From positions 62,001-126,000 of the forward strand of contig NZ_QAOW01000003.1 in the NCBI RefSeq assembly GCF_003051005.1: a stretch of 64,000 nt of DNA. The letters are read 5' to 3'. Below are positions 10,841-21,440 of this stretch, piece by piece (position 1 is the first letter of the stretch; every line of letters starts with the position of its first letter). This DNA comes from Rhodococcus sp. OK519. GTDB lineage: Bacteria > Actinomycetota > Actinomycetes > Mycobacteriales > Mycobacteriaceae. The translations under genes and the position numbers were made by a program. The notes under the pieces were generated by a model. That model was not told the DNA's origin and ran no database searches. It saw only the letters and a list, made by a program, of their open reading frames with translations.

Positions 10841-11617
10841 GTGACGACGCTGACCGACCTGCTCACCAAGATCGGCTCCAAAAGCATCGAGGTCCTCGAC
10901 CTCACCGCGCCGCTCAGTTCCGAGACACCCGTTCTACATCTGCCGGAGCCGTTCGCGAACACCATTCCGGCGCGGCTGGAGACGGTCAGCAACTTCGACG
11001 ACGACGGCCCGGCGTGGGCGTGGAACAACCTGCACACCGGCGAGCACACGGGTACGCACCTGGATGCGCCGACGCACTGGATCACCGGCCGCGACGGCGC
11101 GAGCGTCGACCAGATTCCGCCGAGCCGGCTCATCGGCCCGGTCGCGGTCGTCGACGTCACCACCGAGGTGCAGCAGAATCCCGACTTCGTGCTCGAGGTG
11201 GAGCACCTCGAGGCGTGGGAGGCCGAGAACGGCACGCTGCCCGACGGCGCCTGGCTGATCCTGCGCACCGGGTGGGCCGAGCGGGGCTCCGATCCCGTGC
11301 GGTTCGCGAACGCGGACGCGGACGGTCCGCACACCCCCGGCATCTCGGTGGCGGCCGCCAAGTGGCTGGCCGAGCAGAGCCCCATCACCGGTCTGGGCGT
11401 GGAGACGGTCGGCATCGACGCGGGTATCGCGGCCGGCTTCGACCCCATGTTCCCGGCGCACTACTACCTGTTGGGCAACGACAAGTACGGCCTCACCCAG
11501 CTGCGGGGCGTCGACAAGCTGCCCACCCTCGGTGCGGTGCTGGTGGCGTCGCCGCTGCCGATCGTCGGCGGCACCGGTAGCCCGGCTCGCGTGTTCGCGC
11601 TGGTCGAGCAGGCATGA
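10841..11617 (+). CDS. Cyclase-family metal hydrolase (kynurenine formamidase-like)
   Basis: A 258-residue protein of the cyclase / KynB-like metal hydrolase superfamily (PF04199). The metal-binding signature HTGEHTGTHLDAPTHW is near residues 66-81, with a further LRTGWAERG block and DAGIAAGFDPMFPAHYYLL near the C-terminus. Members hydrolyse amides or lactones, using His/Asp side chains to hold Zn or Mn. The start GTG has a -10-like box six bases upstream and no ribosome binding site. The stop overlaps the ATG of the thiamine-diphosphate enzyme by four bases, so the two act in one pathway. Substrate unknown; kynurenine catabolism is not supported by neighbours. Confidence 0.85.
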   Translation: MTTLTDLLTKIGSKSIEVLDLTAPLSSETPVLHLPEPFANTIPARLETVSNFDDDGPAWAWNNLHTGEHTGTHLDAPTHWITGRDGASVDQIPPSRLIGPVAVVDVTTEVQQNPDFVLEVEHLEAWEAENGTLPDGAWLILRTGWAERGSDPVRFANADADGPHTPGISVAAAKWLAEQSPITGLGVETVGIDAGIAAGFDPMFPAHYYLLGNDKYGLTQLRGVDKLPTLGAVLVASPLPIVGGTGSPARVFALVEQA

Positions 11618-13269
11618 GTTCCACCGTCACCGGTTCCACGGTCGCCCAGTTGGTGGGCGCCACCATCGCCGATCTCGGTGTGGGGCACGCGTTCGGGGTG
11701 GTGGGCAGCGGCAACTTCGCGGTCACCAACGCCTTGATCGCGGCGGGAGTGCCCTTCGTGGCGGCCCGACACGAGGGCGGCGCGGCCACCATGGCCGACG
11801 CCTACTCGCGCATGTCGGCGCTGCCCGCGGTCGTCACCACCCATCAGGGGTGCGGGCTCACCAACGCGATGACGGGGATCGGGGAGGCGGCCAAGAGCCG
11901 CACACCGCTGATCGTGCTCACCGCCGACACCGCCGGGTCCGCGGTGCGGTCGAACTTCCGGATCGACCAGGATGCGTTGGCGCGCAGCGTCGGCGCCGTC
12001 GCCGAGCGGGTGCATTCGGCGCAGTCGGCGGTGGCCGACACCGTTCGTGCGTACCGCACCGCGGTCCGCGAGCGGCGCACGGTGGTGTTGAGCCTGCCGT
12101 TGGATGTGCAGGAGCAGGCGGCCCCGGACTCGTGGGCGGTGCCGCTGCTGCCGCCGATCCAGCGGGTGCGGCCCGACGCGGGCGCGCTGACGTCGCTGGT
12201 AGCGCAGCTCGAGCGGGCCGAGCGCCCGGTGTTCGTGGCCGGTCGCGGCGCCCGCGACGCCGGACCGCAGATCGCGGCTCTCGCCGAACGGACCGGCGCG
12301 CTGGTCGCGACATCGGCGGTGGCCAACGGTTTGTTCGAGGGAAATCCGTTCTCGCTCGGCATTTCCGGCGGCTTCTCGTGTCCGCTCACCGCGGAGCTGA
12401 TCGCGGGCGCCGACCTGATCGTCGGCTGGGGTTGCGCGCTGAACATGTGGACGATGCGGCACGGGTCGCTCATCGGCGCCCACGCCACCGTGGTGCAGGT
12501 GGACGTCGAGGACGAGGCGCTGGGCGCGAACCGCCCGATCGATCTGGGTGTGCTGGGCGACTGCCGGGAGACCGCCGTCGCCGCGCTCGCGGACGTCGGG
12601 GCGACGCGGTCCGGCTACCGCACCGACGACGTGCGGGGCCGCATTGCGGCGCAGGGCCGTTGGAACGACGTGGTGTTCGACGACCTGTCCACCGAGTCGA
12701 CGATCGACCCGCGCCTGCTCTCGCGCGAACTGGACGCGATCCTGCCGCGCGAGCGCACGGTATCGGTGGACTCGGGCAACTTCATGGGCTACCCGAGCGC
12801 GTATCTGTCGGTGCCGGACGAGTTCGGCTTCAACTTCACGCAGGCCTTCCAGTCCATCGGCCTCGGTCTGGCCACGGCGATCGGAACCGCGCTGGCGCAG
12901 CCGGATCGGCTGCCCGTCGCCGCGCTGGGCGATGGCGGGTTCCTCATGGGGATCTCCGAACTCGAGACCGTGGTCCGCCTCGGTCTGCCGATGATGCTGG
13001 TGGTCTACAACGACAGCGCGTACGGCGCGGAGGTCCACCACTTCGATGCGCCCGGCACCGACCATTCGGCAGTGACGTTCCCGGACACCGACATCGCGGC
13101 CATCGCCCGGGGTTACGGCGCCGAGGCCGTGACGGTACGGTCGGTCGGCGATCTCGACGCCGTGCGTGCGTGGGTCGCGGGTCCACGGACCCGGCCGCTG
13201 CTGATCGATGCCAAGGTCAGCTCCGACGGCGGGGCGTGGTGGTTGGCGGAGGCGTTCAAGGGGCACTGA
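11614..13269 (+). CDS. Thiamine-diphosphate-dependent enzyme (acetolactate synthase / decarboxylase-like)
   Basis: A 551-residue protein with the three-domain ThDP fold. The N-terminal Pyr domain has the activating Glu in AARHEGGAATMADAYSR. A central domain of the TPP_enzyme_M type follows, and a C-terminal PP domain has the cofactor motif GDGGFLMGISELETV...YNDSAYG. It resembles acetolactate synthase large subunits and benzoylformate-type decarboxylases, but no regulatory subunit lies nearby, so branched-chain biosynthesis is unlikely. It is translationally coupled (ATGA) to the cyclase-family hydrolase. A decarboxylation or carboligation linked to an amide or lactone hydrolysis is inferred; the substrate is unknown. 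Confidence 0.83.
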   Translation: MSSTVTGSTVAQLVGATIADLGVGHAFGVVGSGNFAVTNALIAAGVPFVAARHEGGAATMADAYSRMSALPAVVTTHQGCGLTNAMTGIGEAAKSRTPLIVLTADTAGSAVRSNFRIDQDALARSVGAVAERVHSAQSAVADTVRAYRTAVRERRTVVLSLPLDVQEQAAPDSWAVPLLPPIQRVRPDAGALTSLVAQLERAERPVFVAGRGARDAGPQIAALAERTGALVATSAVANGLFEGNPFSLGISGGFSCPLTAELIAGADLIVGWGCALNMWTMRHGSLIGAHATVVQVDVEDEALGANRPIDLGVLGDCRETAVAALADVGATRSGYRTDDVRGRIAAQGRWNDVVFDDLSTESTIDPRLLSRELDAILPRERTVSVDSGNFMGYPSAYLSVPDEFGFNFTQAFQSIGLGLATAIGTALAQPDRLPVAALGDGGFLMGISELETVVRLGLPMMLVVYNDSAYGAEVHHFDAPGTDHSAVTFPDTDIAAIARGYGAEAVTVRSVGDLDAVRAWVAGPRTRPLLIDAKVSSDGGAWWLAEAFKGH

Positions 13270-13333: not shown

Positions 13334-13386
13334 CTGGACGATTGACCAGTTTTGCCTTCAGCAAGGTCACGGAAGTGCTACAAATT
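13334..13386 (+). promoter_or_regulatory. Promoter region of the left SipW module: 23-bp shared element plus -10-like box
   Basis: Bases 13334-13356 (CTGGACGATTG...TTTTGCC) are identical to the reverse complement of 18739-18761, upstream of the right module. In both places exactly 22 bases separate the element from an AT-rich -10-like box, here TACAAATT at 13379-13386. The core CTGG-N8-CCAG is partly palindromic and contains TTGACC. It is likely an activator or alternative sigma site. The rest of the 305-bp gap 13270-13574 shows no gene; the 5' leader would be about 185 bases. Confidence 0.6.
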
Positions 13387-13574: not shown

Positions 13575-14099
13575 ATGAACAAGAAGACCAAGGGCGCCAT
13601 CGCCGCCGGTGCAGCTGCACTGATCCTCGCCGGTGGTGCCGGCACGTTTGCAACCTGGAGCGATACGAAGGACCTGACCGGCGGCAGCGTCACGTCAGGC
13701 CACCTCGCCTTCTCGGGCACTGCCACCGGCGACTGGTACAAAGGCACCGACACCAGCATTGTTGCGAACAAGATCGCGGACATCGCTACCTTCCGGATCG
13801 TGCCCGGCCAGACGCTGACCTACAAGGCGACTGCAGACTTCCTTGCCGAGGGCACGAACCTGAACGCGAAGCTGGAGCTGGTTGGCGGCAACACCACGGA
13901 CGGCATCGGCTTCGATTGGGAAGACACCGTGTTCGCTGCAACCGGTGTTGACAGTGGTAGCGGCGTCATCACGCCGAGTTCGACCACGCGCACCGCAACC
14001 GTCACGAAGTCGGTGACCTTCGATGCCACCGGCATCGCCAACCAGGGCAAGGTCGCTGACCTCACCGGCCTTCAGCTGAAGCTCACGCAGACCAGCTAA
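13575..14099 (+). CDS. SipW-dependent (alternate-type signal peptide) exported protein, TasA/camelysin-like
   Basis: A 174-residue secreted protein. The N-terminus MNKKTKGAIAAGAAALILAG leads into GTFATWSDTKDLTGGSVTSG, the alternate signal typical of SipW substrates, with cleavage expected around the A-T-WSD site. The mature part is a Thr/Gly-rich beta domain without Cys, holding IATFRIVPGQTLTYKA and ending at LQLKLTQTS. The same IAT-x3-VPG-x2-LTY block recurs in the lipoprotein at 15383-15967, so they are paralogues. It starts the left export operon, two bases before the next gene. Its likely role is a surface fibre or matrix subunit, by analogy with Bacillus TasA. Confidence 0.8.
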   Translation: MNKKTKGAIAAGAAALILAGGAGTFATWSDTKDLTGGSVTSGHLAFSGTATGDWYKGTDTSIVANKIADIATFRIVPGQTLTYKATADFLAEGTNLNAKLELVGGNTTDGIGFDWEDTVFAATGVDSGSGVITPSSTTRTATVTKSVTFDATGIANQGKVADLTGLQLKLTQTS

Positions 14100-14101
14100 C
14101 G

Positions 14102-14650
14102 ATGTCCAAGAACCACCGTTGGTGGGCACTCGCAGCGGTGCCGGTCGTTGGGCTGATCTTCTTCTCAACCCAGCAGACCGGGGCCCTGTGGAGTGGCACA
14201 CAGAATCTCAACGGCGGAACCGTCACTTCCGGAACCCTCGATATCGCCGTCGGCGCTGGCGGCACGACGATGAGCAACTACCCGTTCACGGCGCTGGCCA
14301 AGTCCGGAATGATTCCGGGCAGTTTCGCGCAGGCACCGCTGACCATCCGGAACTCCGGCGACGTTGCAATGAAGTACCGCCTGCAGAACGGCGCTCAGTC
14401 GAATCCGGCAGTGCCACTGACTCTCACGGTCGCGACGGTCGCGAACGAGGCAGCCTGCCCGGCAACCGGCAACCCGAGCGGAGCTACACAGGTGTACACC
14501 GGTGCGCTGATCGGCGCGCAGATGGCGCAGTTGCGCACGCTCACCCCCGGCACCTCCGAGGTCCTGTGCATGCGCGGTGCGATCGGCGACAATGCCGCCC
14601 AGAATGCCAACACCACCGCGACGTTCACGTTCGCCGCTGAGGTCGGATGA
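14102..14650 (+). CDS. SipW-dependent exported protein, second TasA-like subunit
   Basis: A 182-residue exported protein. MSKNHRWWALAAVPVVGLIFF is followed by TGALWSGTQNLNGGTVTSGTLDI, again an alternate-type signal. The mature domain has LAKSGMIPGSFAQAPLTIRNSGDVAMKYRL and two Cys (EAACPATG and EVLCMRG) that probably pair. These blocks match the protein at 18020-18631 (LTKTNMLPGNSVAAALPVQNTGTVPFSYAL with GTVCSGG and ETLCFQV), so one paralogue sits in each module. It begins two bases after the first subunit gene and its stop overlaps the signal peptidase ATG by four bases. A filament or cell-wall role is inferred. Confidence 0.8.
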   Translation: MSKNHRWWALAAVPVVGLIFFSTQQTGALWSGTQNLNGGTVTSGTLDIAVGAGGTTMSNYPFTALAKSGMIPGSFAQAPLTIRNSGDVAMKYRLQNGAQSNPAVPLTLTVATVANEAACPATGNPSGATQVYTGALIGAQMAQLRTLTPGTSEVLCMRGAIGDNAAQNANTTATFTFAAEVG

Positions 14651-15291
14651 GCCAAGCGGTCGAGAGCCAGGATCAACCCACCACCGCCTGGTGGTGGGTT
14701 AAGTCTGTTGTGTCCTGGGTCCTCCTGATCGCAATGATCGGCATTCTTGCTCTTACGATCGCAATCCCACGACTTACCGGTTCGAGTCCTTACACGGTCC
14801 TGACAGGCTCGATGGAGCCTACCTTCCCGCCGGGAACGCTGATCGTCGTCAAGCCACAGGACGCAAGCGCACTTCAAGTCGGTGATGCGATTACGTTCCA
14901 GTGGGAGTCCGAGAAACCCGAGGTCGTCACGCACCGCATCGTCGCGGTTCAACAGACGTCAAAGGGCGAACCGCGGTTCACGACCAAGGGCGATGCGAAC
15001 TCGTTACCTGACGAGAGACTCGTTGTTCCCGAGCAGGTTCGCGGCAAGGTCTGGTACGCCGTGCCGTACGTCGGGTACGTCAACAACTACATCACAGGCA
15101 AGCAACGTTCGATCCTCCTCGTGGTGGTCGTCGGCGGCTTACTGACCTACGCGGTGGCGATGTTCGTCAGCTCGGGCCGCGATAAGGCACGCAAGCGCCG
15201 GCAGCCGCCGATCGAAGACGACGACAACGCCTCGACGATGGACATCCCAATGCTCCGCAACGAGAGTTCCGCGTCAGATACAGCGCGCTAG
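14647..15291 (+). CDS. sipW: Signal peptidase I, SipW/ER type (left module)
   Basis: A 214-residue membrane peptidase. It has one N-terminal helix (VVSWVLLIAMIGILALTIAI) and one near the C-terminus (SILLVVVVGGLLTYAVAMFV). The catalytic Ser lies in LTGSMEPTFPPGTL. In the second conserved block the usual Lys is replaced by His (VVTHRIVAV), as in SipW and eukaryotic SEC11. The KGDAN box follows. Such enzymes process the alternate signals of TasA-like substrates, and two such substrates lie directly upstream with a four-base overlap. A charged cytoplasmic tail of about 45 residues ends the protein. The gene name follows the family, not a proven orthologue. Confidence 0.88.
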   Translation: MSQAVESQDQPTTAWWWVKSVVSWVLLIAMIGILALTIAIPRLTGSSPYTVLTGSMEPTFPPGTLIVVKPQDASALQVGDAITFQWESEKPEVVTHRIVAVQQTSKGEPRFTTKGDANSLPDERLVVPEQVRGKVWYAVPYVGYVNNYITGKQRSILLVVVVGGLLTYAVAMFVSSGRDKARKRRQPPIEDDDNASTMDIPMLRNESSASDTAR

Positions 15292-15382
15292 CCGCCGCAT
15301 CACCCGCACCTTGAGACAACCGGGCTACGAACTGAAACGAACAGGGTCGAATTATCGCGATCCGAGGGGAATGAGAGAACCG

Positions 15383-15967
15383 ATGAAGATACGGACGAGG
15401 GGCCTCGTCGCAGCTGCCGCGCTGAGCTCGACCCTCCTGCTCACCGCCTGCGATCCGATCGGCACCGGGAGCGCCGGCAGCTCGGGCGGCGGAACGACGA
15501 CGACCCCTGCCGGGCCGACCACCACAGCACCACCTACCACCATCGGTGGTGGCGGAAATACCTCCGGTTCTTTGGCTCTCACGACCCTCACCGAGCCCAC
15601 ATGGAGTGATCAGAACGGCCCGATCAATATCGCCACTATAAAGGTCGTTCCGGGCGACGTTCTCACGTACCGGGGGACGTTCAAGATCACCCTCAAGGGG
15701 GATGGACTGAAGGCGCGACTCAGCACTGGCGATGTGATCTTCACGGGCGGTGGGCAGCTTGAGGGCAAGCTGCAGCCGGTAGTGACGGCCACGGTCAACG
15801 GCGCTCCCCTGCCAGCGGGCAACATTGTTACAACCGCGCACGATGGCGCAACCGTCGAGGTGGCAGCCAAGTTCACCTTCGATCCTCAGACGGCCGGCAC
15901 TGTCGGACAGTCTGATACGGCCAGCTTCCAGGACATCGGCGTTCATCTCGAGCAGGTCATCGGCTAG
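15383..15967 (+). CDS. Lipoprotein paralogue of the SipW-exported subunit
   Basis: A 194-residue lipoprotein. The signal LVAAAALSSTLLLTACDP contains a clear lipobox (LLTAC, Cys near residue 23), followed by a Ser/Gly/Thr/Pro linker (GGGTTTTPAGPTTTAPPTT). The folded part contains INIATIKVVPGDVLTYRGTF and KARLSTGD, which parallels the first subunit of this operon (13575-14099). A fibre-type domain thus appears joined to a membrane anchor instead of a SipW signal. I chose the ATG at 15383, with an upstream GAGAG; ATG 15371 is an alternative. It follows the signal peptidase by about 90 bp. It could anchor the exported fibre, which is inferred. Confidence 0.75.
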   Translation: MKIRTRGLVAAAALSSTLLLTACDPIGTGSAGSSGGGTTTTPAGPTTTAPPTTIGGGGNTSGSLALTTLTEPTWSDQNGPINIATIKVVPGDVLTYRGTFKITLKGDGLKARLSTGDVIFTGGGQLEGKLQPVVTATVNGAPLPAGNIVTTAHDGATVEVAAKFTFDPQTAGTVGQSDTASFQDIGVHLEQVIG

Positions 15968-15984
15968 CGCTCTACCCACCTCTT

Positions 15985-16023
15985 CAGGGCCACTGGCGGT
16001 CCCCCTCCCGGCCAGTGGCCCTG
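15985..16023 (+). terminator. Hairpin after the left SipW module
   Basis: Thirteen-base perfect arms (15985-15997 CAGGGCCACTGGC and 16011-16023) with a 13-base pyrimidine-rich loop, 17 bp after the lipoprotein stop. There is no T-run, so termination strength is uncertain. Confidence 0.6.
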
Positions 16024-16038
16024 GCTTGCACCACACAG

Positions 16039-16068
16039 GCTCCCCAGTCTCGATTGAGACTGGGGAGC
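16039..16068 (+). terminator. Second hairpin after the left SipW module
   Basis: Thirteen-base perfect arms GCTCCCCAGTCTC / GAGACTGGGGAGC around GATT, followed by GTTGTCGTT. It stands 15 bp after the previous hairpin and likely backs it up. Confidence 0.65.
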
Positions 16069-16318
16069 GTTGTCGTTCGCCCGCGAGCGCGGCGGCATTC
16101 AGCGTGGGCTAATGTTCTCCTGCGTGTCCTCGCCGCCAATCGGACCTACGATCCCCGCTGGGCCAGCCGTTGTGGGCGGCCAGGTACTCCAGGGCCTATG
16201 CCACGCCCGAGAACCATTCACGGCAGCCCCACCGACCGCCTATCGATCAGCCTGTCGAGTCACGGCATCACAGCCGACCTTGGCCGTTGAGAGCTGTTGG
16301 TGTACAGACGCAAACGAA
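16069..16318. other. Non-coding gap between the two convergent SipW modules
   Basis: About 250 bp with no open frame that looks coding on either strand and no further strong repeat. It separates the tandem hairpins of the left module from the terminator of the right module. Confidence 0.5.
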
Positions 16319-16358
16319 AACGGGGCCGCTATCGACGTTGGTCGATAGCGGCCCCGTT
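16319..16358 (-). terminator. Terminator of the right SipW module
   Basis: An 18-bp perfect stem (16319-16336 and 16341-16358, loop GTTG), 12 bp past the stop of the Thr/Pro-rich protein gene. On the minus strand the stem is followed by TTTTCG, fitting an intrinsic terminator. Confidence 0.8.
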
Positions 16359-16370
16359 CCGGGGCTACTT

Positions 16371-17387
16371 CTAGTTGCTTAGTGCGGCAATCGCGGTCGG
16401 CACGGTCGTCGACTCCGAGTCGACCGGCACAGCACTCCAGACGCCGGCGGCGACGCGATAGATCTTCCCGTCATCGACGATCCACAGGGTGTCGTCCGTC
16501 GAATCCCATTGCACGATGGCATCTTCCGAGACTCGCCAGGAGAACACCTCCTCGCCGGCCAAGTCGCGGACAACAGCATTCGGACCCGACTTCCCGGCGA
16601 CGTATGTCCCCGCGGGAGACACACTCGCATCCGCCAGCTTCGTCGTCGTCGGTGTCGTCGGTGTCGTCGTGGTCGGTGTCGTCGTGGTCGGTGTCGTCGT
16701 GGTCGGTGTCGTCGTGGCCGGTGTCGTCGTGGCCGGTGTCGTCGGTGTCGTCGTGGTCGGTGTCGTCGTGGCCGGTGTCGTCGTGGCCGGTGTCGTCGTG
16801 GCCGCGCTCGGCGCTATCGTCGTCGTCGGCATGGGCTCCGCTGAGCTCGAAGGCAAGGGGTCCTTCGCGTCCAAAGGAACCGACACACGCGCCGCCTGCA
16901 CACCACTAGGCGCCGCTCCGTCACATTTGCCAAGTGAAACCGTGAACGACCACAGATTCTCACCCGAGTAGGCCGTGCCGGTCTGCCCATTTCGGATGGA
17001 CCGGACCTCGAATCGCGCGGAGCTCGAAGTCTCCCTCACATCGTCCCAATAGTTCACGGTCACTGAAATTGGATCACCGGCGTTAGCCGGAATTGTCGGC
17101 GTGAACGACCGACTGCCACGTGAGCCATTGACAATTCGCATGTCGTACGTATAGCCAGGTCCTAGATGCGCCCACTTCATTGCGCTGCTGCCCACACCGC
17201 TCGAACCGCCACCTCCAGTGCAACCCAGCCATTTCGGTGCAGGCCAAAAGTCAGCACTCGAGCTGTACGTGTTCGCGGCGGAAGCAACGTCGGTGAACGC
17301 CGCGACCGTCCCGACCGTCGAGACGCCCATGGCTGTCACGCTAATGACACCCAAAGCGATTAACGTGTGTCGCAGGGAAATTCGCAT
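16371..17387 (-). CDS. Exported Thr/Pro-repeat surface protein with alternate-type signal
   Basis: A 338-residue protein. MRISLRHTLIALGVISVTAMG runs into GTVAAFTDVASAANTYSSSADF, a SipW-type signal resembling those of the other substrates. Residues of about 35-190 form a beta-rich domain with two Cys (WLGCTGG and SLGKCDG). A Thr/Pro stretch of about 55 residues of TTTPA/TTTPT pentapeptides follows, typical of wall-spanning or O-mannosylated linkers. The C-terminal 85 residues hold DDTLWIVDDGKIYRV. The ATG at 17387 has an AAAGGA ribosome binding site. It is the last gene of the right module, 10 bp after the signal peptidase. A surface stalk is the likeliest role. Confidence 0.78.
   Translation of the reverse strand: MRISLRHTLIALGVISVTAMGVSTVGTVAAFTDVASAANTYSSSADFWPAPKWLGCTGGGGSSGVGSSAMKWAHLGPGYTYDMRIVNGSRGSRSFTPTIPANAGDPISVTVNYWDDVRETSSSARFEVRSIRNGQTGTAYSGENLWSFTVSLGKCDGAAPSGVQAARVSVPLDAKDPLPSSSAEPMPTTTIAPSAATTTPATTTPATTTPTTTTPTTPATTTPATTTPTTTTPTTTTPTTTTPTTPTTTKLADASVSPAGTYVAGKSGPNAVVRDLAGEEVFSWRVSEDAIVQWDSTDDTLWIVDDGKIYRVAAGVWSAVPVDSESTTVPTAIAALSN
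16640..16803 (-). repeat. In-frame 15-bp tandem repeat encoding Thr/Pro pentapeptides
   Basis: Repeated units of the form GGTGTCGTCGTGGTC / GGTGTCGTCGTGGCC (plus strand), with two shortened units, encode TTTPT and TTTPA on the minus strand. The units are near-identical, so copy number may change by slippage without breaking the frame. Confidence 0.8.
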
Positions 17388-17397
17388 CGAGATTCCT

Positions 17398-18012
17398 TTA
17401 GCTACGTATCGATTCGGTGGGCAAACCGGCCGCAGTCTTCGAGCAGCCCAGCGGATACTCGGGCCGCAAGTCGCCGGGCATATCTGAGGATTCGGAATCG
17501 CCGTCTTTGCGCTTCGAACCAGATCCGAAGGCCAGCACCAGGACCCCGCCAACCAGCACACCACCGAGGAAAATGGCGACTGGCGACGACAGCCAGGACA
17601 CCACGTAGCCGAGCGCTGGCACGCTGAAGAACACGCGATCAGCCTCGGTCACGGTGTAGGGCGTGACATCCGCATCCTGGTTGGCATCACCCTTGAGGAT
17701 CAGCACCGACGTGGAACCTTCCGAGGAGGCGATCTCATCGACACGGTGTGTAATCCGGATGCCCTGCTCAGTCGAGACGCTGACCACGTCCCCGACCTTC
17801 AAATCGCTTGCCGGCGTGGTCTTCGACAGAGCCAACGCGCCGGTCGGGATGTCGGGTGACATCGAGCCGGAGCGGAAAATCAACGGCTTAATACCGAACA
17901 GGAGCGAGCCCGTCGCCGCGAGCACACAGATCAACCCGGCAACTGCGCCCACATTGAGAGCGATCTCACGACCCCGGGATCGACGGGATTCATTCGAACT
18001 CTGAACGGCCAT
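17398..18012 (-). CDS. sipW: Signal peptidase I, SipW/ER type (right module)
   Basis: A 204-residue membrane peptidase and the second of this type in the window. It has an N-terminal helix (EIALNVGAVAGLICVLAATGSLLF), the catalytic Ser in FRSGSMSPDIPTGAL, His in place of Lys in IRITHRVDEI, and the KGDAN box. A C-terminal helix (SPVAIFLGGVLVGGVLVLAFG) and a charged tail follow. Outside the catalytic boxes it differs clearly from the left-module enzyme, so the two are not a recent duplication. It sits between two putative substrates, 7 bp after the TasA-like gene and 10 bp before the Thr/Pro-rich protein gene, suggesting dedicated pairing. Confidence 0.87.
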   Translation of the reverse strand: MAVQSSNESRRSRGREIALNVGAVAGLICVLAATGSLLFGIKPLIFRSGSMSPDIPTGALALSKTTPASDLKVGDVVSVSTEQGIRITHRVDEIASSEGSTSVLILKGDANQDADVTPYTVTEADRVFFSVPALGYVVSWLSSPVAIFLGGVLVGGVLVLAFGSGSKRKDGDSESSDMPGDLRPEYPLGCSKTAAGLPTESIRS

Positions 18013-18019
18013 GCGCCAC

Positions 18020-18631
18020 TCACACAGTCGTCGCGCTGAAGTTGAACGACGTGGCGAGGTTCATTCCCTGCACAGACGTCGGCGCCGCCGGATCCAGTTT
18101 CACCTGGAAGCACAGTGTCTCACTACCTTGACCGGAGACCGGTCGTGCGGTACTAATCAGGTCCGCCACACCCCCGGAGACCAACGGGATGTCAGTCGCG
18201 ATCGCTTCGCCTCCGCTGCATACGGTGCCGTTCGACGTGCCCGTCGAAACGGTCACCTTCAGATAGGGCGCGAGGGTCGACGACGTCGCTGCGGCGTACA
18301 GCGCGTACGAGAACGGGACCGTGCCTGTGTTCTGGACAGGCAGTGCCGCCGCCACCGAATTGCCGGGCAGCATGTTGGTCTTCGTCAGCGTCGCAAAATC
18401 GTAGGCCGTCGGATTACCTTCATTCCCGTTGAGCTTCAGGTTGATCGTGCCCGTCGAGAACGTTCCCGACGTCGCGACCGCGGTGTCGCTCCACGCGGCG
18501 AGGGTGCCGATGGCGCCAAGACCCAGGACGATTCCGAGGGACGCGACCGCGCGAGTGCGGCTACCGGTCAGCACTGCGCGGACGCGCGCACCGACCCTCG
18601 GGCGCGAGCCCGGAACAATGTGACGAGACAT
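18020..18631 (-). CDS. SipW-dependent exported protein, TasA-like (right module)
   Basis: A 203-residue protein. A long Arg-rich n-region (MSRHIVPGSRPRVGARVR) precedes the helix VASLGIVLGLGAIG and the alternate signal end TLAAWSDTAVATSGTFSTGTINL. The mature part shares blocks and a Cys pair (GTVCSGG and ETLCFQV) with the left-module subunit at 14102-14650. It is the first gene of the right module. Its start lies about 75 bases after the -10-like box that follows the shared 23-bp element. An exported fibre or matrix subunit is inferred from the SipW pairing. Confidence 0.8.
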   Translation of the reverse strand: MSRHIVPGSRPRVGARVRAVLTGSRTRAVASLGIVLGLGAIGTLAAWSDTAVATSGTFSTGTINLKLNGNEGNPTAYDFATLTKTNMLPGNSVAAALPVQNTGTVPFSYALYAAATSSTLAPYLKVTVSTGTSNGTVCSGGEAIATDIPLVSGGVADLISTARPVSGQGSETLCFQVKLDPAAPTSVQGMNLATSFNFSATTV

Positions 18632-18708: not shown

Positions 18709-18761
18709 GATATTTACCACCCGAATGGGACTCTTCGCGGCAAAACTGGTCAATCGTCCAG
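18709..18761 (-). promoter_or_regulatory. Promoter region of the right SipW module: 23-bp shared element plus -10-like box
   Basis: On the minus strand, 18761-18739 carries the same 23 bases as 13334-13356. After exactly 22 bases comes TAAATATC (18716-18709), matching the position of TACAAATT in the left copy. Sequence between and beyond the two parts differs, so conservation of element and spacing points to a shared regulator. The remainder of the gap 18632-18892 holds no recognisable gene. Confidence 0.6.
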
Positions 18762-18892: not shown

Positions 18893-19522
18893 TCAGGACG
18901 CGAGACTGCCCGAGCTACCCGCGCCGGCGAAGAGGCAGGACAGCGAGCCCAGGGAACCACTCGGGACGCAGCCCGGATCGGGCAACTCACCCGGAGTGAA
19001 GCCGACGGCCCACTTGGGGTTCACGGTGCCGTTCTGCGTGCCGTTGTTGGCGTCGGCCGGCATGCCGACGACGAGGTCGATGTTCGCGACGGCACCGGCC
19101 TCGAGGTGAACCGAGCGGACCTCCGCACCGGGCACCACGGCACCACCATGAACGAGCGTCACCGGTGTTCCGACGTTGCCGCCGACGTCGACGCGGGCGG
19201 TGGCGACCATGTCCGGGGTCAGCGTGTAGTTGCCCACCGCGAATCCGACCCAGCCCGCCACACCGGACGCATTGCGCACCTGGAAACTGGTCTTCAACTC
19301 CTCCCCGGGCACCAGCACGCCGGGATTCCAGTCGATCAACTCGGGGCCGCCCCACGTGGTGCCGCCGTCAGCCGAGTACTCGACGGTCGCGGGCTCGTCG
19401 GCGCGCGCCACGGACGGCACGGCGATCACGGCGACGGCCGACAGGAACAGCGCGAGCAGCACGGCGCCCAGGAGCTTGCCCGGCAGCGAAAGCGCCCCGG
19501 ACACACGGGTGATAGCGGTCAT
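18893..19522 (-). CDS. Secreted protein with ordinary Sec signal, Gly/Ser tail
   Basis: A 209-residue exported protein. The signal (LLGAVLLALFLSAVAVIAVPSVARA-DE) is a classic Sec/SPase I signal ending at ARA, unlike its SipW-type neighbours. The mature domain (VEYSADGGTTWG, VPGEELKTSFQVRNASGVAGWVG) looks like an immunoglobulin-type beta sandwich. The tail is Ser/Gly-rich (SGSLGSLSCLFAGAGSSGSLAS). The frame extends to 19606, but the ATG at 19522 lies seven bases after TAGGCT, fitting a leaderless start. It lies just outside the right SipW module, same strand, and may belong to the same surface system. Function unknown. Confidence 0.75.
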   Translation of the reverse strand: MTAITRVSGALSLPGKLLGAVLLALFLSAVAVIAVPSVARADEPATVEYSADGGTTWGGPELIDWNPGVLVPGEELKTSFQVRNASGVAGWVGFAVGNYTLTPDMVATARVDVGGNVGTPVTLVHGGAVVPGAEVRSVHLEAGAVANIDLVVGMPADANNGTQNGTVNPKWAVGFTPGELPDPGCVPSGSLGSLSCLFAGAGSSGSLAS

Positions 19523-20810: not shown

Positions 20811-21440
20811 ATGAGCGGACGCCATCGCAAGCCGACCACCACCGGCCGTACCGTCGCCAAGGTTGCCGTCACCGGCGCCATCATGGGCGTGGGCGGCGTT
20901 GCCTTCGCCGGCACCGCCAGCGCGGCCCCCGATTCCGACTGGGACCGACTGGCGCAGTGCGAGGCCAGCGGCAACTGGGGCATCAACAACGGCAACGGCT
21001 ACCAGGGCGGGCTGCAGTTCTCGCCCAGCACCTGGAGCGGTCACGGCGGCGGCCAGTTCGCGGCCACCGCTGACAAGGCCACCCGTGAGCAGCAGATCGT
21101 CGTCGCCGAGCGTGTGCTCGCGTCGCAGGGCTGGGGCGCCTGGCCGTCCTGCTCGTCCAAGCTCGGCCTCAGCAGCGCGCCGTCGCAGCGCACGCTCCAG
21201 GCCACCCCCGCGCCGGCTCCGGTCGCCCCGGCACCCGTCGCCGCACCGGCCGCTCCGGTCGCGCCGCCGGCCATGCAGGCCGCCTTCGCCGGCATCGACT
21301 CGCTGATCGACGCCGCCGAGGACCAGGGATTCGTCATCCACCCGGACATCCTCGGCGCCTACGACAACGCGAAGTCCTTCGACTTCACCCAGCTGGCCAT
21401 GCAGAACATCGCCGGTTTCGCGAACCAGTCGCAGAGCTGA
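20811..21440 (+). CDS. rpfA: Resuscitation-promoting factor (lytic transglycosylase)
   Basis: A 209-residue secreted enzyme. A signal peptide ([21 protein letters not shown]) precedes the Rpf domain ([34 protein letters not shown] through [12 protein letters not shown]), with the catalytic Glu in QCEASGNW and the conserved Cys pair. A Pro/Ala linker ([16 protein letters not shown]) and a C-terminal segment of about 60 residues follow. Rpf proteins cleave peptidoglycan and help dormant actinobacteria resume growth. The ATG follows the ydaO riboswitch directly. The symbol reflects resemblance to RpfA in position and layout; the exact paralogue is less certain. Confidence 0.92.

Follow-up and report, generated by a model that had tools for sequence, protein, structure and literature searches.

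A convergent gene cluster with two SipW-type signal peptidases and a predicted TasA-like subunit, probably for a surface fibre, in Prescottella (Rhodococcus sp. OK519)

In the tapA-sipW-tasA operon of Bacillus subtilis, a dedicated signal peptidase of the Ser-His type is encoded beside its substrates. According to the available part of one report, LepB cleaves poorly at sites with an aromatic P2' residue, and TasA, with Phe at P2', is cut by SipW (PMC10269814). An N-terminal donor strand of TasA has been described (PMC9674648, available text), the start of this strand is conserved in TasA, and TapA is a strand-donating chaperone (PMC10151520, available text). The sipW-tasA-calY-capP system of Bacillus cereus likewise combines SipW with more than one camelysin-type subunit and is described as sortase-independent (PMC13082335), and in the sipW-bsaABCRSD operon of Clostridium perfringens SipW is required for secretion of the polymer-forming protein (PMC7395162), both as far as the accessible text goes. 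Here we describe a gene cluster of this kind in a 64,000-nucleotide stretch of Rhodococcus sp. OK519 (contig NZ_QAOW01000003.1, positions 62,001 to 126,000), hereafter the window, in which all coordinates are counted. The source genus is Prescottella, formerly part of Rhodococcus, and the organism is described as a soil-type actinobacterium. Judged from sequences and structure models, the gene set probably builds protein fibres on the cell surface.

Seven genes, here called A to G, were found in two halves facing each other, A-B-C-D (13575-15967) on the plus strand and G-F-E (18631-16371) on the minus strand. A first-pass annotation, made from the letters of the window, had proposed convergent modules with one signal peptidase each, and all the genes that it named were recovered in place. 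As it had described, the left half consists of two alternate-signal exported proteins (A, 13575-14099; B, 14102-14650), a Ser-His signal peptidase (C, 14647-15291) and a lipoprotein (D, 15383-15967), as judged by family scores and, for the start of B, by eye. The right half consists of one alternate-signal protein (G, 18020-18631), a diverged SipW-type peptidase (F, 17398-18012) and a Thr/Pro-repeat protein (E, 16371-17387).

Both peptidases passed the cutoff (51.85 bits) of TIGR02228, the family of archaeal and SipW-type signal peptidases, C with 110.5 bits and F with 59.8 bits. The Bacillus SipW equivalog NF046067, with a cutoff of 190, was reached by neither (102.9 and 64.3 bits, respectively). 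Each carries a Ser-His instead of a Ser-Lys dyad, the catalytic role of which is taken from the family: Ser55 and His96 of C were invariant in all 17 aligned rows, one locus with a stop codon in its reference (L044) being omitted, and Ser50 and His89 of F in all 18. Search of the whole genome gave two SipW-type peptidases, both in this cluster, and a single LepB-type enzyme above cutoff, located outside it. The two peptidases share 32% identity, and in a quick tree of 91 rows, covering the window and 39 of the 80 named loci described below and labelled from best profile hits, C (lineage 1) and F (lineage 2) formed two clades, separated by a branch with an SH-aLRT support of 100. The branches of F appear by eye to be longer than those of C. 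The divergence of C from F noted in the first-pass annotation was thus confirmed.

The distribution of the cluster was then surveyed by scanning named genomes with the C profile, which yielded 328 relatives; the best 80 were kept, and the locus counts that follow describe these nearest 80. Both peptidase lineages were found in one co-directional cluster at 76 of the 80 loci, also in Arthrobacter and Nocardioides. At 69 loci C is followed on its own strand, no more than 3.5 kb away, by F, the commonest order being A-B-C-G-F-E, and at seven loci of Rhodococcus the G-F-E half lies upstream, the order by profile being A or D-G-F-E-D-B-C. Four loci fit neither order: in two, both of P. defluvii, the cluster is split, another lies at a contig end, and one has no F. 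The system had been considered as doubled; two subunit-peptidase sets are indeed present, but they are not a private duplication, because both lineages occur together in these relatives. Within the genus, TIGR04089 matches were detected in all 14 genomes and F in 13; eight of the 14 have a single-strand layout, four are convergent (the window, G002, G008 and G009), one (G001) has F alone inverted, and one (G011) lacks the cluster except for a TIGR04089 fragment at a contig end. In the same search, TIGR04089 was matched in 20 of 61 genomes, and it was matched in 17 of the 197 genomes of a class sample.

Several loci deserve separate mention. Extra F-type peptidases or tandem clusters were observed at some actinobacterial loci (L111, L133, L156 and L163), and two Aeromicrobium genomes show the tandem order A-C-G-F-F-A-C-G-F, indicating that the modules multiply. 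In P. defluvii SampleD3_15 (L043/L121) the frames of B, C and F are broken up and were entered only as separate pieces; sequencing error is the likely cause, since the estimated completeness is 79%. One contig labelled Kitasatospora arboriphila (L123) carries a full A-B-C-G-F-E cluster, with C 52% identical to that of the window, and is possibly mislabelled or transferred.

Among the exported proteins, A (143.1 bits) and D (84 bits, profile positions 32-179) passed the cutoff of TIGR04089 (60), which B and G did not reach. TIGR04088, the SipW-dependent signal model (cutoff 19), was passed by A (21.9 bits) and G (29.8 bits) and missed by E (16.1 bits); B had no match to it and none above cutoff to any family, and its alternate-type start was recognised by eye. 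G stayed slightly under the Pfam gathering score of 22.5 for camelysin/TasA (PF12389), with 21.3 bits in the window and 21.1 bits in the whole-genome search. The paralogy of B and G across the two halves, including a Cys pair, was upheld by tblastn (31% identity, E 8.7e-10) and by profile-profile comparison (99.7%). For the families, locus references (59 of 85 for A-type, 59 of 85 for G-type, 36 of 67 for B-type and 40 of 82 for E-type) were aligned with the window added to each. The Cys pair was invariant in the 60 rows of G; of the pair in B (Cys119 and Cys156), one Cys was invariant and the other conserved in at least 90% of the 37 rows.

Predicted folds were compared with known structures, as had been proposed. 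The predicted model of mature G matched the TasA fold, its top matches being the TasA fibre and then archaeal bundling pili. The structural matches of the A-type fold (A and D) to a TasA-like fold were middling, and comparison of A and B with solved pilins, by sequence only, gave chance-like matches; a fold missing from the VIA lists was not counted as evidence. In D, the SipW-type signal is replaced by a lipobox (LLTAC). Because its mature part is a TIGR04089 domain, D is a paralogue of A with a lipobox; it retains the A domain from the GG..SG.L stretch onward and lacks the Trp segment. The counterpart of D has a SipW-type start in most of the other Rhodococcus aligned, and a lipobox in R. 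tukisamuensis and the R. erythropolis group.

A common motif of predicted cleavage was recognised in the subunits. The P1 residue was Ala in all 157 aligned rows, and P2' was Trp in 156 of them (A, 60/60; B, 37/37; G, 59/60); for E, P2' was aromatic in 29 of 41 rows. As an aromatic P2' makes a poor substrate for a LepB-type enzyme, we propose that processing of A, B, G and E requires C and F. By analogy with TasA, it would fit that the Trp at P2' both requires a special peptidase and begins a donor strand.

The most unusual feature of the cluster was found in F and E. E has a SipW-type start (AAFTD), an Fn3-like domain, a Thr/Pro stalk and a C-terminal domain. The family profile of the E domain, built from fused and separate rows, matched Fn3 structures in the PDB (tenascin-R, E 8.9e-7; FN3con, E 9.1e-7); Pfam gave no Fn3 match for E of the window and, among eight relatives, one weak FN3 match below cutoff. 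F-type frames are present at 78 loci, and at 63 of these one or more of the frames extend by at least 130 residues. The E profile matched this extension at 52 of the 63 extended loci (above 50 bits at 43), and a 40-residue stretch with at least 65% Thr, Ser and Pro was present at 41. The extensions inspected usually start with a linker, followed by a hydrophobic segment with a SipW-like site at its end (AAFTD, AAWTD or similar). By sequence, the 52 matched loci thus have a signal peptidase joined to a predicted SipW-type substrate. The 11 extended loci without E match belong to Arthrobacter-, Glutamicibacter- and Nocardioides-type genera, and their extensions may carry other domains. A separate E frame was detected within the same locus at 14 of the 15 non-extended loci, one locus (L170) having none. 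In the window, E starts 10 nt beyond the TAA stop codon of F, which AAAGGA overlaps, indicating that F and E are separate, probably coupled genes. In a further sample of 296 genomes of the class, that of the window included, 16 of the 20 strongest F matches (18 genomes) fell in open frames 345 or more residues long, frames being counted from stop to stop with the upstream extension included. In one plasmid record, a 615-residue protein at an F match is annotated just as signal peptidase I.

We next describe the sequences upstream of the two halves. An exact copy of the same 23-bp operator-like element, CTGGACGATTGACCAGTTTTGCC, was found before each, at 13334-13356 on the plus strand and at 18739-18761 on the minus strand, ending 218 bp upstream of A and 107 bp upstream of G. 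The two matches in the window compare with 0.00 expected from 100 shuffles, and the 23 shared bases with a maximum of 14 over 298 pairs of stretches drawn at random from the window. In the 5.28-Mb genome the element was detected twice at up to three mismatches, both times before a half of the cluster, and the reversed control never. Counting that of the window, the genus has 13 main clusters; at up to five mismatches the element precedes A in 10 of them, it was not listed at L037 and L041, and L046 has it before D. Strong sites of the genus have a near-palindromic 16-bp core with a GTGCTACAAA or GTGGTAAA box at a constant distance downstream, and therefore read as an activator site with an extended -10. 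In the window, the extended -10-like sequences are GTGCTACAAA (13375-13384, plus strand), with a similar box at equal spacing in the strong genus sites, and GTGGTAAATA (18711-18720, minus strand), spaced from the element as on the left. The proposal that the two halves are co-regulated gains from the exact element before both, regulation itself being read from the sequence. Interpretation of the cluster as a doubled SipW/TasA-like surface system is partly supported.

A weight matrix, trained on genus sites and therefore circular in its genus scores, recovered degenerate versions of the site upstream of A in several Rhodococcus, at a spacing increased by 2 bp in the R. erythropolis group, and nothing recognisable in most of the remaining loci. 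A general regulon for the element was considered and rejected: the looser pattern with two mismatches was scattered over 28 of 101 genomes of the family, and only the strict form is therefore informative. A third, loose match in the same genome (C1:162307) lies about 0.8 kb upstream of a frame that resembles dihydrolipoamide dehydrogenase by eye. Between the halves, a terminator-like hairpin of 13 pairs follows the left half (16039-16068, plus strand; RNA fold z -6.3 for 15975-16080), and a strong hairpin (16319-16358) stands just past the end of E, with z -6.5 on the plus and -6.8 on the minus strand for 16300-16375; the pattern scan caught just part of the latter, on the plus strand.

The origin of the convergent layout was examined by forcing 11 Prescottella rows together in each tree; L046 was excluded once a first tree had revealed a foreign cluster there. 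Such a clade was rejected for F (approximately unbiased (AU) test, p 3.3e-5) and G (p 1.3e-4). It was not rejected for B (p 0.19), and in the tree of C the Prescottella rows are grouped already (support 75/96, not starred); when L046 was included, the clade was rejected for C too (p 5.1e-6). In fuller trees, F and G of the window fell among Rhodococcus with an upstream G-F-E half, and F of the six other operon-type Prescottella formed a group elsewhere. On the simplest reading of these sequences, the convergent layout is derived, and the G-F-E half would have been exchanged as a cassette. Simple inversion of one operon is not favoured, because the G-F half falls outside the lineage of operon-type Prescottella. 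The locus L046/L159 (G012, Rhodococcus hoagii AcN21-7), of which C, F and G cluster with Speluncibacter and other genera and not with Prescottella, looks foreign.

We favour, with moderate confidence, a single co-regulated, Sec-dependent donor-strand system for a surface fibre of the TasA and archaeal-bundling-pilus kind, in which A and B would go with C, and G and E with F, on a lipid-anchored base and with a stalk. The same genes might form two independent fibre systems lying side by side, C serving A and B for one appendage and F serving G and E for another. The age of the two peptidase clades agrees with such a separation, as do the exchange of the G-F half independently of B-C in Prescottella, seen in the AU tests above, and the A-type gene in each half at the seven loci with an upstream G-F-E half; but both lineages share one co-directional cluster at nearly all loci, and the halves, when split, have one exact element in common. 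We consider two separate systems somewhat unlikely.

It is also conceivable that no fibre is made, and that the subunits are secreted, non-polymerising proteins of Ig-like fold with SipW-type processing, either wall-associated adhesins or envelope proteins. Several points weigh here against a fibre: Ig-like folds are common, the matches of A are middling, the best matches of G are only modestly ahead of those to chaperone-usher pilins and other Ig-like chains, and the stalk and Fn3 domain of E resemble a single-chain adhesin. However, the top structural matches of G are the TasA fibre and bundling pili, and SipW systems form filaments where described (PMC9674648, PMC7395162 and PMC13082335, in their available parts), making a non-fibrous role unlikely in our judgement. 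That F is mainly structural, a membrane anchor and scaffold of E and not a processing enzyme, seems quite improbable: the frequent extension of its frame and its apparently longer branches would suit such a role, but the expected catalytic Ser and His are invariant in every aligned row.

For a single fibre system, the following pathway may be proposed. The 23-bp activator-type site, with the extended -10 at set spacing, would switch on both halves. A, B, G and E would leave the cell via Sec, with signals ending in [T/S]-x-Ala|x-aromatic, at which cleavage is predicted. This cleavage would release an N-terminal segment, which in TasA is the donor strand, and the incomplete Ig-like subunits, as predicted for the fold of G, could chain by donor-strand exchange. 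With its A domain but no Trp segment, D looks like a lipid-tethered acceptor, possibly an anchor that accepts and does not donate a strand. F and E are fused in many relatives and neighbours here; this coupling would bring to the processing site an Fn3 domain borne on a Thr/Pro stalk, which might stay as a membrane-bound base or be set free by self-processing. A more specific view, which we put forward only tentatively, is that of a separate actinobacterial branch of TasA-type pili in which one of two dedicated peptidases bears a SipW-type substrate of its own as a C-terminal arm of Fn3 domain and stalk, thereby serving also as a membrane-bound base or as a self-cleaving donor of the first subunit, and in which species exchange the subunit-peptidase half as a cassette with a common operator.

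Upstream of G, an eighth gene, H (18893-19522, minus strand), encodes a secreted protein with an ordinary-looking signal peptide and is probably a member of the gene set. Its homologues were found at 24 of the 80 loci. The best two PDB profile matches of H were AbpX (E 0.026 and 0.031), and profile comparison with G gave an intermediate 41.5%. A site similar to the 23-bp element lies upstream of H at five mismatches in three relatives, and in the window as judged by eye only. Among the homologues (L097, L100, L101 and L105, and L112, L130, L168 and L170), several from Rhodococcus have long repeat-like extensions and those of Dietzia a lipobox, both as judged by eye, suggesting that H may alternate between secreted and lipid-anchored forms. 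Two neighbours were named by eye. A resuscitation-promoting-factor-like protein (20811-21440) adjoins the cluster, and 11 of the 12 other main clusters mapped in the genus have a homologue of it nearby; a thiamine-diphosphate-enzyme-like gene (11614-13269) lies upstream of the left half, with a homologue near 7 of the 12.

If the proposed system is real, many actinobacteria would share a surface-fibre pathway of the SipW/TasA kind, in which the export enzyme is tied to a structural component of the fibre. Such a system would allow a direct test of why SipW-type enzymes exist, the aromatic P2' residues possibly doubling as donor-strand anchors, and would offer an entry point to biofilm or adhesion in Rhodococcus and its kin. 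In the literature on SipW, TasA, camelysin, AbpX and the family names, including that on actinobacteria and Rhodococcus, no account of such a cluster was found, as judged from titles and with subscription literature largely uncovered.

The closest described systems each share part of this organisation. Archaeal bundling pili (AbpX; 7ueg, 9sj2 and 9rhp) gave the second-best fold match of G and weak profile matches of G and H; their hosts are archaeal, unlike that of the present actinobacterial cluster. We know of no twin peptidase cluster in these pili. TIGR04089 covers A and D, and TIGR04088 A and G; these NCBIfam models name single proteins and cover neither the two peptidases nor the fusion. 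For the B. cereus system, the available text names one SipW (PMC13082335), versus two peptidases here, and CapP was not recognised in the cluster, although no search was aimed at it. The C. perfringens operon encodes extra secreted proteins, as here, together with one sipW and its own two-component regulator (PMC7395162, available text); no such regulator was seen in the A-H stretch. With B. subtilis, the cluster has in common the Ser-His peptidase beside its substrates, the aromatic P2' residue (Phe in TasA; PMC10269814, available text) and, as predicted for G, the TasA fold; a TapA-type initiator was not recognised in general family scans of the cluster proteins, no search being aimed at TapA. 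Relative to the B. subtilis operon, only the present cluster has two peptidase lineages, the Cys pair of B and G, the lipid-anchored paralogue D, and a stalk fused or adjacent to a peptidase. The protein families and the SipW/TasA kind of system are already known, and it is the peptidase-stalk fusion that sets this cluster apart.

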